Shown in pieces: positions 721 through 8,837 of a DNA stretch of 33,343 nucleotides. The notes below the pieces were generated by a model that was given only the letters and a program-made list of their open reading frames with translations, had not been told where the DNA came from and ran no database searches. The position numbers and the translations under genes are program-made. Each line of letters begins with the position of its first letter. Within the stretch, counting starts at the first letter, position 1. This DNA is from Candidatus Methylomirabilota bacterium. GTDB taxonomy: Bacteria > Methylomirabilota > Methylomirabilia > Rokubacteriales > CSP1-6. The DNA is taken from assembly GCA_035936835.1 (NCBI GenBank), contig DASYVT010000224.1, forward strand, positions 1 to 33,343. The letters are read 5' to 3'.

Positions 721-1488
721 CTACGCGGTCGCCGCCTTCAGATCGTCGAGCTGCCTGCGCACGCCCGCGATCATGCACGCCAGATCGGACGTGAGCATGA
801 CGAGGTCGAAGCCGCGCTTCACCGACCCCGCCGCGAACGCCGCGCTCGCGCAGTGCATGGCCGCCTTGATGCCGTGCTTGTGGGCCGCGTCGCGGATCCG
901 GTCGCAGGTGGCGATGTGCACCGGATCCGGGTTGTCGCCGCGCGGGGCCATGCCGAGCGCGAACGAGAGATCGGCGGGGCCGATGTACACGCAGTCGAGC
1001 CCCGGGGTGGCGCAGATCGCGTCGAGGTTGGCGAGGCCCTCCTTGGTCTCGATCATCGCCATGACCACCATCTCGTCGTTGGCCTTGGCCACGTAGTCGG
1101 CGCCGCCGTAGTGCACCGCGCGCACCGGCCCCGAGGAGCGCATGCCCACCGGCGGATAGCGGCACGCGGCCACCGCCTTCGCCGCGTCCGCCGCGGTATT
1201 GATCAGGGGCACGAGGATGCCGTAGGCGCCAAGGTCCAGCGCCTTCATGATGGGCGCCGGGTCGTTCCACGCCACCCGCACTACCGGCACCGTGTCGGTC
1301 TGCGAGATCGCCTGCAGCATCGGCCAGAGATCGCTCATGTCGGTCGTCCCGTGCTGCATGTCCACAACCAGGGCGTCGAAACCCTGGCGGGCCATCACCT
1401 CGGCGGTGAACCCATGGGACACCGAGAGCCAGCCCATGGTGACACACCGCCCGTCGCGCCACATCTGCTTGATCTTGTTCGGTCGCAC
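721..1488 (-). CDS. HpcH/HpaI-family class II aldolase/citrate lyase-like protein
   Basis: A 255-residue metal-dependent aldolase of the HpaI/RhmA type, which cleaves 4-hydroxy-2-oxo acids to pyruvate plus an aldehyde. Visible signatures are LVVDMQHG at residues 40-47 (His46 corresponds to the catalytic His), Arg71 in VVRVAWND, the metal-binding Glu147 in MIETKEG, and Asp173 in YIGPADLS. Length is normal for the family. The start is GTG at 1488, preceded by GAGGTG; no better in-frame start lies upstream. The TRAP receptor follows 56 bases downstream, consistent with import and cleavage of one substrate. The exact substrate is unknown. The 215 bases up to the divergent lactonase gene hold no gene that I can support. 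Confidence 0.9.
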   Translation of the reverse strand: MRPNKIKQMWRDGRCVTMGWLSVSHGFTAEVMARQGFDALVVDMQHGTTDMSDLWPMLQAISQTDTVPVVRVAWNDPAPIMKALDLGAYGILVPLINTAADAAKAVAACRYPPVGMRSSGPVRAVHYGGADYVAKANDEMVVMAMIETKEGLANLDAICATPGLDCVYIGPADLSFALGMAPRGDNPDPVHIATCDRIRDAAHKHGIKAAMHCASAAFAAGSVKRGFDLVMLTSDLACMIAGVRRQLDDLKAATA

Positions 1489-1702: not shown

Positions 1703-2809
1703 ATGGGTGAAATGGGTCGTCGCGCGTGCTGGGCTCTGCTGCTCGCCGTGGTGTCGGGGCCGATGATGGCTTCGCCGGCGCGGGCAGCCACTTTCGTATA
1801 CGTCGGCAACGCCGAGAGCAACGAGATCTACGTGCTCGAGCTCGACCGGCAGCGCGGCGAGCTGACGGTCGTGGAGAAGGTATCGATCCCCGGCATCGAG
1901 AAGCCGGGCGACTCGACGCCAATGGCGGTCAGCCCCGATCGCCGCTTCCTCTACGTGGGGACGCGCGGCGAGCCGAAGGTCGCGGCCGGCTTCGCGATCG
2001 ACCCAACGACCGGCAAGCTCAAGCACGTTGCCAGCGGTCCGCTCGCAGACAGCATGGCGTACATCTTCACCGACCGCACCGGCCGCTACCTGCTCGGCGC
2101 GTCGTATCCCGGTCACAAGCTCACCGTAAACCCGATCTCGTCGCCCGGAACCGTCCAACCGCCCAAACAGGTGCTGTCGGGCTACCCAAACGCGCACTCG
2201 ATCCTCGCCGATGCGGCGAACCGTCACGTGCTGGCACCCACCCTGGGCAACGACCGCGTCAACCAGTTCACGTTTGATGCTGCCAGCGGCACGCTGGCGC
2301 CGAACACGCCGGCGGCGGTCGAGGTGAAGGAGAAAGCCGGTCCGCGACACTTCGTGTTCCACCCCGGCGGCAAGCTCGTCTACGTCCTCGGCGGGGTCGA
2401 CGGGGTCGTGTACGTCTTCGACTACGACCCCGGCACCGGGAAACTCACGGCGAAGCAGACCGTCAGCGCGCTGCCGCCCGACTTCCAGGGCAAGCCCTCG
2501 GCCGCCGACCTGCACATCACGCCCGACGGCCGGTTCCTCTACGCCTCGGAGCGCACGTCGAGCACGCTGGCCGGCTTCAAGGTCGATCCGGCGAACGGCA
2601 CGCTCTCACCCATCGGCAGCGTGCCGACCGAGAAGCAGCCGCGCGGCTTCAACATCGATTCCTCCGGGCGCTACCTGCTCGCGGTCGGCCAGCTCTCTCA
2701 CGGCCTGTCGAGCTACGCGATCGACCCGGCCAGCGGGAAGCTCACCAAGCTCAAGGAGTACCCGATGGGCAAGAACCCGAACTGGGTCGAGATCGTCGAC
2801 CTGCCCTGA
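1703..2809 (+). CDS. Exported lactonase-family (7-bladed beta-propeller) protein
   Basis: A 368-residue protein of the Pgl/3-carboxymuconate-cyclase-like lactonase family (PF10282). A signal peptide of about 28 residues ends at SPARA-ATF, so the propeller is probably periplasmic. The blades repeat a pattern of TFVYVGN, RFLYVGTRGE, GRYLLGASY, KLVYVLGG, RFLYASERTSST and GRYLLAVGQ, each followed by a phrase like DPATGKL; about seven such units are seen. The family hydrolyses sugar lactones or acts on carboxymuconate, but many members are untested. The start ATG at 1703 has GGGAGGAGA just before it. A RidA gene follows after 11 bases and the AhpD-like selenoprotein after that, so the three probably share a transcript. 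Confidence 0.9.
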   Translation: MGEMGRRACWALLLAVVSGPMMASPARAATFVYVGNAESNEIYVLELDRQRGELTVVEKVSIPGIEKPGDSTPMAVSPDRRFLYVGTRGEPKVAAGFAIDPTTGKLKHVASGPLADSMAYIFTDRTGRYLLGASYPGHKLTVNPISSPGTVQPPKQVLSGYPNAHSILADAANRHVLAPTLGNDRVNQFTFDAASGTLAPNTPAAVEVKEKAGPRHFVFHPGGKLVYVLGGVDGVVYVFDYDPGTGKLTAKQTVSALPPDFQGKPSAADLHITPDGRFLYASERTSSTLAGFKVDPANGTLSPIGSVPTEKQPRGFNIDSSGRYLLAVGQLSHGLSSYAIDPASGKLTKLKEYPMGKNPNWVEIVDLP

Positions 2810-2820
2810 GAGGGAGTGCC

Positions 2821-3207
2821 ATGCCCAGGAAAGAGATCGTCCGCGTCGATGCAGCGGCGGCGAATCCGAACCTGTCGCCGGCCACGAAGTTCGGCAGCCT
2901 CGTCTTCGTGTCCGGCCAAACGGGACGGCATCCGGTCACCGGAGAGCTCGGCAAGGACGTACGGGAACAGACCCGCAACGTGCTCGAACGGATCAAGACG
3001 ATCCTGACGGCGGCGGGTACGTCGCTGGACAACGTGCTGACGGCAACGACGTATCTGACCAAGGTGCAGGACGTCGCAGCATACAATGAGGAGTACGCGA
3101 AGTACTTCCCGGCCAACAAGCCGGCGAGGACGACCGTGACGGTGGCGGCGCTGAACTCGCCCGATCTTATCGTGGAGATCACGGTCACCGCGTGCATCCC
3201 TGACTGA
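2821..3207 (+). CDS. RidA family protein
   Basis: A 128-residue RidA/YjgF/UK114 protein. Family members hydrolyse reactive enamine/imine intermediates to keto acids and ammonia, or act as steps in ring-cleavage pathways. Features seen are FVSGQTG (residues 29-35), TRNVLERI with TAAGTSLDNV (51-72), and PARTTV with Arg103, matching the conserved Arg that binds the substrate carboxylate, plus Glu119 in IVEITVTA near the end. Length is typical (about 128). The ATG at 2821 follows AGAGGGAG, 11 bases after the lactonase stop. It sits between the lactonase and the AhpD-like gene, suggesting a role in that pathway rather than general housekeeping. A second, divergent RidA lies at 4250. Confidence 0.93.
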   Translation: MPRKEIVRVDAAAANPNLSPATKFGSLVFVSGQTGRHPVTGELGKDVREQTRNVLERIKTILTAAGTSLDNVLTATTYLTKVQDVAAYNEEYAKYFPANKPARTTVTVAALNSPDLIVEITVTACIPD

Positions 3208-3240: not shown

Positions 3241-3759
3241 ATGGCAAGGATCGAGCCGCTGAAAATCCACGAGGTCGACGACGAGATCCGGCATGCCTGC
3301 GAGGAGGCCGAGCGCCAGACCGGCACCTCGGCGAGCACGCGAACCTACGCGAAGAATCCGGCCGTCTTCAAGGCGCTCGGCGCATTCCGCGCCGCGCTCG
3401 GGCGCGAGGGCACGATCGATCCGGTGCTCCGCGAGCTGGTGCGGATCAAGATCGCCGGCCTCAACGCCTGCCGATACTGACTCACGCTGCGCTATGCCGG
3501 GGCCCGGCATGCGGGAGCGACGGAAGCGAAGATCGCCGCGATCAACGACGAGAGCTCGGACCTCTTGAGCCCTCGGGAGCGAGCCGCCCTCAGGTTCGCC
3601 GAGAAGCTCGCCGTCGACCACCAGAAGGTCGACGACACGCTGTGGTCGGAGATGCGCCAGCACTTCTCGGAGGCCGAGATCATCGAGCTGGTCGCCCACA
3701 CGACGCTCTACATCGGGTTCGGCCGGTTCAACGAGATCGTGGGGCTGGATCCGGCGTAG
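3241..3759 (+). CDS. AhpD/carboxymuconolactone-decarboxylase-like selenoprotein (in-frame TGA at 3478-3480 read as Sec)
   Basis: Reading through the TGA gives 172 residues. Before it: MARIEPLKIHEVDDEIRH up to LNACRY; after it: LTLRYAGARHAG, then LSPRERAALRFAEKLAVDH and FSEAEIIELVAHTTLYIGFG, all typical of one CMD/AhpD-like domain. The TGA is codon 80, three residues after Cys77, giving C77-R-Y-U80. In cysteine members of the family this site is the redox CxxC; the window's own relative at 8233-8811 has C86-T-Y-C89. AhpD-like proteins with a CxxU motif are a known bacterial selenoprotein group. A hairpin fitting the bacterial SECIS consensus starts five bases after the TGA. The domain is whole on both sides of the TGA and has no other lesion, which argues against a pseudogene. 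Expected role: thiol/selenol peroxidase or reductase. The start has AAGGAGG upstream, and the gene is the third of an operon. Alternative: a sequencing error of TGC or TGT. Confidence 0.82.
3485..3519 (+). promoter_or_regulatory. Putative bacterial SECIS element in the AhpD-like gene
   Basis: Directly after the TGA (3478-3480) the RNA can fold as: 3485-3488 with 3516-3519, an internal mismatch, 3490-3492 with 3511-3513, a single bulged U (3493), then a perfect seven-pair top stem ATGCCGG (3494-3500) with CCGGCAT (3504-3510). The apical loop is GGC. The loop begins 20 bases after the TGA, within the 16-37 range of the bacterial consensus, and its first two bases are G. A bulged U in the stem and Gs in the loop are also features of the E. 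coli fdhF element bound by SelB. Base pairing was done by hand. Confidence 0.7.
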
Positions 3760-8232: not shown

Positions 8233-8811
8233 CTAGTCGCGCCCCATGGTATGGAACTCGCGGTTGGGCTTCATGTCGGCCAGATTGGCCATGCGGTTGG
8301 ACAGGTTGAAGAAGGCCGCGACGGCGCCGATGTCCCAGATGTCCGAGTCCGTGAAGCCGTGCTCGCGCAGGCGCTCGAAGTCCGCCTGGTCGATCTCCCC
8401 CGACCGCTCCGTCACCTTGACCGCGAAGTCGAGCATGGCGCGCTGGCGCGGCGTGACGTCGGCCGCGCGGTAGTTGGCGCTGATCTGGTCGGCGAGGACG
8501 GGGTTCTTGCTGAGGATGCGGAGCGCCGCGCCGTGGGCCACGGTGCAGTAGGTGCAGTCATTGACGCGACTCACCGCCAGCACAATCATCTCGCGCTCTT
8601 GCCGCGAGAGCCCCGAAGGGCCCTTCATCAGCACGTCGTAGTAGTGGAAGAAGGCGCGGAAGTGCTCCGGCTTGTAGCCGTAGGCCAGGAAGACGTTGGG
8701 CGTGAAGCCCGCCTTGGCGGCGTTGGCCTCGACCACCTTCCGGATGTCTTCCGGAAGCGTCTCGGGCGCGGGCACGGGGAAACGGCTGATCGGCGGCGCG
8801 TTATCGGTCAT
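8233..8811 (-). CDS. Peroxidase-related (AhpD-like, carboxymuconolactone decarboxylase family) enzyme
   Basis: A 192-residue protein of the peroxidase-related branch of the AhpD/CMD superfamily. The redox motif is intact: C86-T-Y-C89 followed by His93 in NDCTYCTVAHG, preceded by LSRQEREMIVLAVSRV. A second half (RQRAMLDFAVKVTERSGEID, then DIWDIGAVAAFFNLSNRMAN) is typical of this branch. These enzymes are thought to act as thiol peroxidases or disulfide reductases. The ATG at 8811 has GAGGAGA upstream. It heads a minus-strand run with the ABC receptor (3-base gap), AtuA and xth. It serves as a cysteine counterpart for the CRY-U protein at 3241. Confidence 0.92.
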   Translation of the reverse strand: MTDNAPPISRFPVPAPETLPEDIRKVVEANAAKAGFTPNVFLAYGYKPEHFRAFFHYYDVLMKGPSGLSRQEREMIVLAVSRVNDCTYCTVAHGAALRILSKNPVLADQISANYRAADVTPRQRAMLDFAVKVTERSGEIDQADFERLREHGFTDSDIWDIGAVAAFFNLSNRMANLADMKPNREFHTMGRD

Positions 8812-8837
8812 CACGGCACTCTCCTCGGAGACGGACA

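Follow-up and report, generated by a model that had tools for sequence, protein, structure and literature searches.

Sequence evidence for an AhpD-like selenoprotein in a Rokubacterial genome

The question raised by this locus is whether a TGA triplet that stands within a redox motif specifies selenocysteine (Sec), and what kind of protein would result if it does. The window, as we call the entire 33,343-nucleotide stretch of DNA that was analysed, corresponds to contig 224 in an assembly of 4.1 Mb that is 99.9% complete. An earlier note made from the letters of the DNA alone had proposed a selenoprotein related to the AhpD and CMD proteins, together with a hairpin resembling a bacterial SECIS element. 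The features on which this proposal depends are as follows.

3241 to 3759, forward strand: predicted gene for an AhpD-fold/CMD-family selenoprotein of 172 amino acids, with Sec at position 80 and a TAG stop codon (translation; Pfam CMD; orthologues; AlphaFold2 pLDDT 92.8)
3469 to 3480, forward strand: C77-R78-Y79-U80 redox motif, with the putative TGA Sec codon at 3478-3480 (TGA in orthologous alleles; Cys codons in homologues)
3485 to 3519, forward strand: whole SECIS-like hairpin, including a lower stem and a bulged U at 3493 (RNA fold)
3494 to 3510, forward strand: predicted apical stem-loop of the SECIS element, ATGCCGG-GGC-CCGGCAT (synonymous invariance, covariation)

When the TGA is read as Sec, positions 3241 to 3756 constitute one frame of 172 amino acids that is closed by TAG at 3757-3759, and the context of codon 80 is ...NACRYU80LTLRYAG.... 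Ordinary reading yields 79 residues, precisely the fragment into which normal annotation had been expected to split the gene. The CMD domain (Pfam PF02627) occupies residues 40-121 and spans the TGA, scoring 65.7 bits against a gathering cut-off of 23, and the AhpD core domain model TIGR00778 is also passed (31.3 versus 27.8 bits). C77 and U80 fill the two redox-active CxxC positions used to recognize AhpD-like peroxidases (PMC3141380). The original description of a TGA at the second Cys of CxxC in an otherwise intact domain is therefore accurate. The protein passes none of the full-length NCBIfam models, and its scores are below the cut-offs both for TIGR01926 (peroxidase-related enzyme; 55.9 versus 81.8 bits) and for NF053654 (YciW-related (seleno)protein; 85 versus 310 bits). 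A scan of all TGA triplets in the window revealed no other convincing Sec codon.

The assembly is a MAG, and such a TGA might be a fresh nonsense mutation in a pseudogene or a miscalled TGC or TGT. However, TGA is present at codon 80 in 18/18 distinct orthologous alleles (that of the window and 17 others) from Rokubacterial genomes of the same family, over a range of protein identities extending from 98% down to 53%. Those genomes that bear names are Candidatus Rokuibacteriota MAGs, and we take the lineage of the window to belong probably to the same phylum as Methylomirabilota. No further in-frame stops occur in the 15 full-length close alleles that were checked. Moreover, the ratio dN/dS over all pairs is approximately 0.24 on either side of the TGA (0.27 before and 0.21 after it when measured against the window), which indicates purifying selection on both parts of the gene and therefore argues that the portion following the UGA is translated in frame. 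The independent alleles already refute an assembly or sequencing error and take the place of the suggested look at reads over 3478-3480, and we consider this explanation, like a pseudogene, to have almost no chance of being correct.

Sec insertion in bacteria generally competes with termination, and thus the main product could in principle be the truncated 79-residue protein, with read-through being rare or regulatory. This is very unlikely, as codons 81-169 are constrained as strongly as codons 1-79, and selection therefore acts on the full protein.

A search for homologues with Cys aligned at position 80, which had been suggested as a check, was successful. These proteins carry TGC or TGT codons at this position, share 32-41% identity with the window protein, and display the motifs CANC (Novosphingobium), CPVC (Caulobacter), CAYC (Natribaculum) and CRYC (Niveispirillum). 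TGA at the site and Cys at residue 77 were observed in 36/36 of the fetched loci covering this position, a set that includes the window's own copy, six duplicate records, paralogues and one alphaproteobacterial copy. The alphaproteobacterial genome with this Sec copy also contains selB.

The same checks had called for selA, selB, selC (tRNA-Sec) and selD, and all four are present in the genome of the window. Specifically, selA (583 bits) and selB (373 bits) are clustered with tRNA-Sec (71.3 bits; ARAGORN also calls a tRNA, with anticodon TCA) on contig 235, and selD (348 bits) is located on contig 183. Because the full set is found in a genome that is 99.9% complete, the absence of selABCD cannot be held against the proposal. 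SelD itself is a selenoprotein with its own TGA, in the context SYAACAGUASKMGPG (L040, C183:11015-11956).

The machinery also bears on the idea that TGA is generally read as Trp or another amino acid with no involvement of selenium. The read-through frames are indeed open under table 4, but TGA terminates the neighbouring RidA and lactonase genes, and the in-frame TGAs of related genes stand at the single motif position that homologues fill with Cys. Together with the full Sec machinery, these observations make general recoding scarcely credible.

The hairpin located downstream of the TGA has the geometry first described for it: a top stem of seven pairs, a GGC loop that begins 20 nt after the TGA, and a single unpaired U beneath the top stem. 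The published model of bacterial SECIS elements specifies a loop of 3-9 nt, an upper stem of 4-16 bp, a G within the first two loop bases, a distance of 16-37 nt from the UGA and a minimum free energy of at most -7.5 (PMC13188914, Fig. 2). We applied these published constraints by script in place of bSECISearch itself, and the hairpin satisfies them with its GGC loop at 20 nt, 7-bp top stem and approximately -21 kcal/mol. Rfam yields no matches at the hairpin. The single-sequence fold of the region is not better than that of shuffled sequences (z -0.53), as the region is GC-rich, and therefore it is the comparison with relatives that is decisive.

Among the orthologues, codons 85-90, which encode the apical stem-loop, exhibit a synonymous variation of 0.010 compared with a gene mean of 0.174. 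This is the lowest value of any six-codon window (P about 7.5e-4, from random draws of six columns). We also built a gap-free alignment of 13 Sec genes, comprising orthologues and paralogues. The seven stem pairs are formed in 89% of its cells versus 38-46% in slid controls, although the genes were picked for equal loop distance, a choice that somewhat favours the structure. Double-sided stem changes number 24 versus 6.8 in shuffles, and the stem covariation score is 0.67 versus 0.19, with 0/500 shuffles reaching the observed score. The shuffle control is weakened by the relatedness of the genes, but the slid control, in which this relatedness is retained, gives just as clear a result. All 13 genes have G as the first base of the loop, and the lower stem is variable among orthologues. 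The fit to the SECIS model is thus backed by covariation in the stem. Overall, the sequence evidence is strong and firmly supports the view that the window gene encodes a genuine AhpD-like selenoprotein of a Rokubacterium.

To consider what this protein might do, we examined an AlphaFold2 model, whose input alignment left out one plasmid sequence. The model is all-helical and confident (pTM 0.87), and its best matches in the PDB are AhpD and peroxidase-related proteins (TM 0.80-0.87). A true gamma-carboxymuconolactone decarboxylase lacks the CxxC motif (PMC3141380). The window protein does not conform to this, as C77 and U80 are present and invariant in it, and solved CMD structures rank low among the matches. 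The relay residues of PA0269 are Glu36, Cys48, Tyr50, Cys51 and His55 (PMC3141380), and their counterparts in the window protein are Glu65, Cys77, Tyr79, Sec80 and Arg84. The relay His (His137 in Mycobacterium tuberculosis AhpD) has been called invariant in the family (PMC3141380). The window protein has no His four residues after the second motif position, where AhpD-like peroxidases are expected to carry one, and AhpD-type peroxidase chemistry is therefore not guaranteed. Conservation of Arg84 is 90% or higher in A1 and A2, and the residue is present in every full-length close allele. Arg also stands at this position in 3/4 of the Cys homologues examined, and is thus a subfamily trait. The same homologues led us to reject the notion that Sec makes the relay His dispensable.

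The integrity of the gene, conservation of the Sec codon, covariation of the SECIS, the Sec machinery, the fold and the position of the motif can all be read from sequence, and from these we infer a course for selenium insertion and catalysis. SelB carrying Sec-tRNA-Sec would bind the hairpin downstream of the UGA at 3478-3480, resulting in insertion of Sec80 instead of termination. Cys77 and Sec80 lie where a helix begins. Sec80 would replace the second, catalytic Cys of AhpD and attack the substrate, most likely a peroxide or other electrophile that is thereby reduced. Cys77 would serve as the resolving partner via a selenenylsulfide, Glu65 would occupy the place of the relay Glu, and a thiol donor would recycle the enzyme. 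We assign a probability of about 0.88 to the reading that the gene encodes a Sec-containing oxidoreductase of the AhpD fold (CMD family), decoded at UGA by means of the hairpin and most likely reducing peroxides or electrophiles. A Sec/Cys peroxide or thiol-disulfide oxidoreductase is its most likely role.

Genomic context could narrow these choices, and the earlier note had suggested a selenium-dependent step in an unexplored pathway from the position of the gene after a lactonase and a RidA gene. The neighbours are as follows.

721 to 1488, reverse strand: HpcH/HpaI-type aldolase gene, divergent
1703 to 2809, forward strand: 7-bladed beta-propeller lactonase-family gene (PF10282), with a signal-peptide-like N-terminus
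2821 to 3207, forward strand: Rid-family (RidA-like) gene, 33 nt upstream of the selenoprotein gene and on the same strand

The lactonase, Rid and selenoprotein genes are arranged in this order on the same strand, separated by 11 and 33 nt, which makes co-transcription plausible. Elsewhere, the orthologue is adjoined by a Rid gene in L045 and L048 only, and by a lactonase gene, before or after, in L049, L058, L067 and L068 (partial in L059). Divergent HpcH/HpaI aldolase genes are directly upstream in three loci: L053, L057 and L046 (same as L056). The closest relative, which is 98% identical and one of these three, has an aldolase in place of the lactonase and RidA, neither of which is directly beside the gene. 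Inspection of the sequences reveals a hydrophobic N-terminus resembling a signal peptide in the lactonase but none in the selenoprotein. We reject a conserved lactonase-RidA-CMD operon, as the neighbours differ among orthologues. The case for a step in an unexplored pathway is consequently weak and no specific pathway is supported, although the gene may be loosely associated with sets of catabolic genes.

The RidA stop codon, TGA at 3205-3207, shares its reading frame with the start of the selenoprotein gene at 3241, as do those in L045 and L048. Read-through of this codon was considered and dropped, as the TGA looks like an ordinary stop in the two orthologous loci too. In addition, the Sec copy of the alphaproteobacterial MAG (CNLU, L051) and the Cys homologue of a Caulobacter plasmid (CPVC, L083) have neighbour types in common, namely enoyl-CoA hydratase, thiolase and an EamA/DMT-type transporter. 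These two genes are possibly a Sec/Cys pair with the same function.

The most serious competitor accepts the selenoprotein and assigns it non-peroxide chemistry, such as reductive dehalogenation or thiol-disulfide exchange as a dedicated step of a catabolic module. Arg at the site of the AhpD His sets the protein in a distinct subfamily, the neighbouring genes frequently encode catabolic proteins (a lactonase, a Rid protein or an aldolase), and enoyl-CoA hydratase and thiolase genes accompany both the alphaproteobacterial Sec copy and the Caulobacter Cys homologue. The debrominase Bmp8 (6OHI) is among the close folds (TM 0.85) and is detectably similar in sequence (profile E 1.3e-10). However, the neighbourhood is not conserved, and the Bmp8 parallel extends no further than the fold and a weak resemblance in sequence (21% identity). 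We hold this chemistry to be a possibility worth keeping in mind but clearly the less probable one, and favour reduction of peroxides or electrophiles.

The gene is one of many in its genome. There are 19 CMD matches, 9 of which have an in-frame TGA, located in 9/9 at the second motif position: CRYU (window), CEYU (twice), CPFU, CTSU, CFDU, CATU, CDYU and NTHU. The NTHU gene (C233:10531-10707, in L023) is odd in having Sec without the usual partner Cys. One CEYU gene (NACEYU; L017, C235:24500-43000) is a two-domain CMD selenoprotein gene that adjoins the selA/selB cluster approximately 1.5 kb from tRNA-Sec. Two near-identical paralogues (C178:7383-7568 and C156:1688-1873; L028, L029) have neither Cys nor Sec at the motif, and one Cys form resides in the window.

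8236 to 8835, reverse strand: CxxC paralogue, a peroxidase-related enzyme (DCTYC) and Cys-form CMD protein (TIGR01926, 213 bits)

Genes for DsbA-like proteins with an in-frame TGA (L087/L088, C50:9981-10418; L086, C68:37528-38106) are probably further Sec genes of this genome; the C50 gene reads DYQUPYC (UxxC).

Across 57 genomes of the family, 150 CMD matches were listed and 144 carry exactly one in-frame TGA. Three of the six that lack TGA stop short of the site, and thus 144/147 listed matches that reach it (~98%) have TGA, in a tally counted by hand for which the position of the TGA was checked codon by codon in the fetched loci only. Outside this family, genomes of the phylum contain few CMD matches or none. 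The Sec form therefore appears to be the rule in this lineage, with nearly all of its many CMD copies predicted to use selenium. One might speculate that an Arg-type Sec-AhpD subfamily, with Sec instead of Cys in almost every copy, has multiplied in Rokubacteria and supplies dedicated selenium-dependent reductases for different catabolic modules, such as reductive dehalogenation or the reduction of peroxide intermediates, but we consider this rather unlikely.

There are practical consequences for annotation. Automatic annotation would yield a 79-residue fragment, and the NCBI seleno-AhpD models that the protein hits would miss it, their cut-offs being higher than its scores. The same difficulty affects a further eight CMD genes of this genome. 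Because ~98% of listed site-reaching matches in the family carry TGA, the majority of AhpD-type enzymes in this lineage are probably absent from its functional profiles. Sec and Cys paralogues of a single fold both occur in the lineage, and this natural series could be used to study the contribution of Sec.

The finding is less surprising than was initially supposed, as the gene is one of many Sec paralogues and its kind is in print. CxxU CMD-like selenoproteins (PF02627) were described in 2005 from the Sargasso Sea (PMC1088965) and are included in Table 1 of PMC13188914, and AhpD-like 2 of GOS has been catalogued (PMC2398784). They share with the window protein the CMD domain, Sec at the second CxxC position and a bacterial SECIS after the UGA. 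The Sargasso and GOS sequences, likened here by description, are marine, whereas the window gene belongs to a Rokubacterial lineage in which Sec paralogues are numerous. The protein is a member of an Arg-for-His subfamily, and its scores fall short of the thresholds set for the seleno-AhpD models it matches. Its best NCBIfam match, NF053654 (GroundWater_YciW), covers residues 1-156 at 85 bits, far below the curated cut-off, and the protein is not a member of that equivalog. PA0269 (2O4D/2IJC; ~31% identity) and M. tuberculosis AhpD (12%) share with it the fold, CxxC/U at the start of a helix and a Glu 12 residues before the first Cys, and PA0269 also has Tyr before the second Cys; the window protein differs from both in having Sec for the second Cys and Arg84 for the relay His. 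Finally, a Methylomirabilota MAG is credited with 63 predicted selenoprotein genes (Deng et al., 2026, as quoted in PMC13188914). To the extent that the quoted account describes it, that selenoproteome likewise places many Sec genes in one genome, and those examined here belong to the CMD, DsbA and SelD families.
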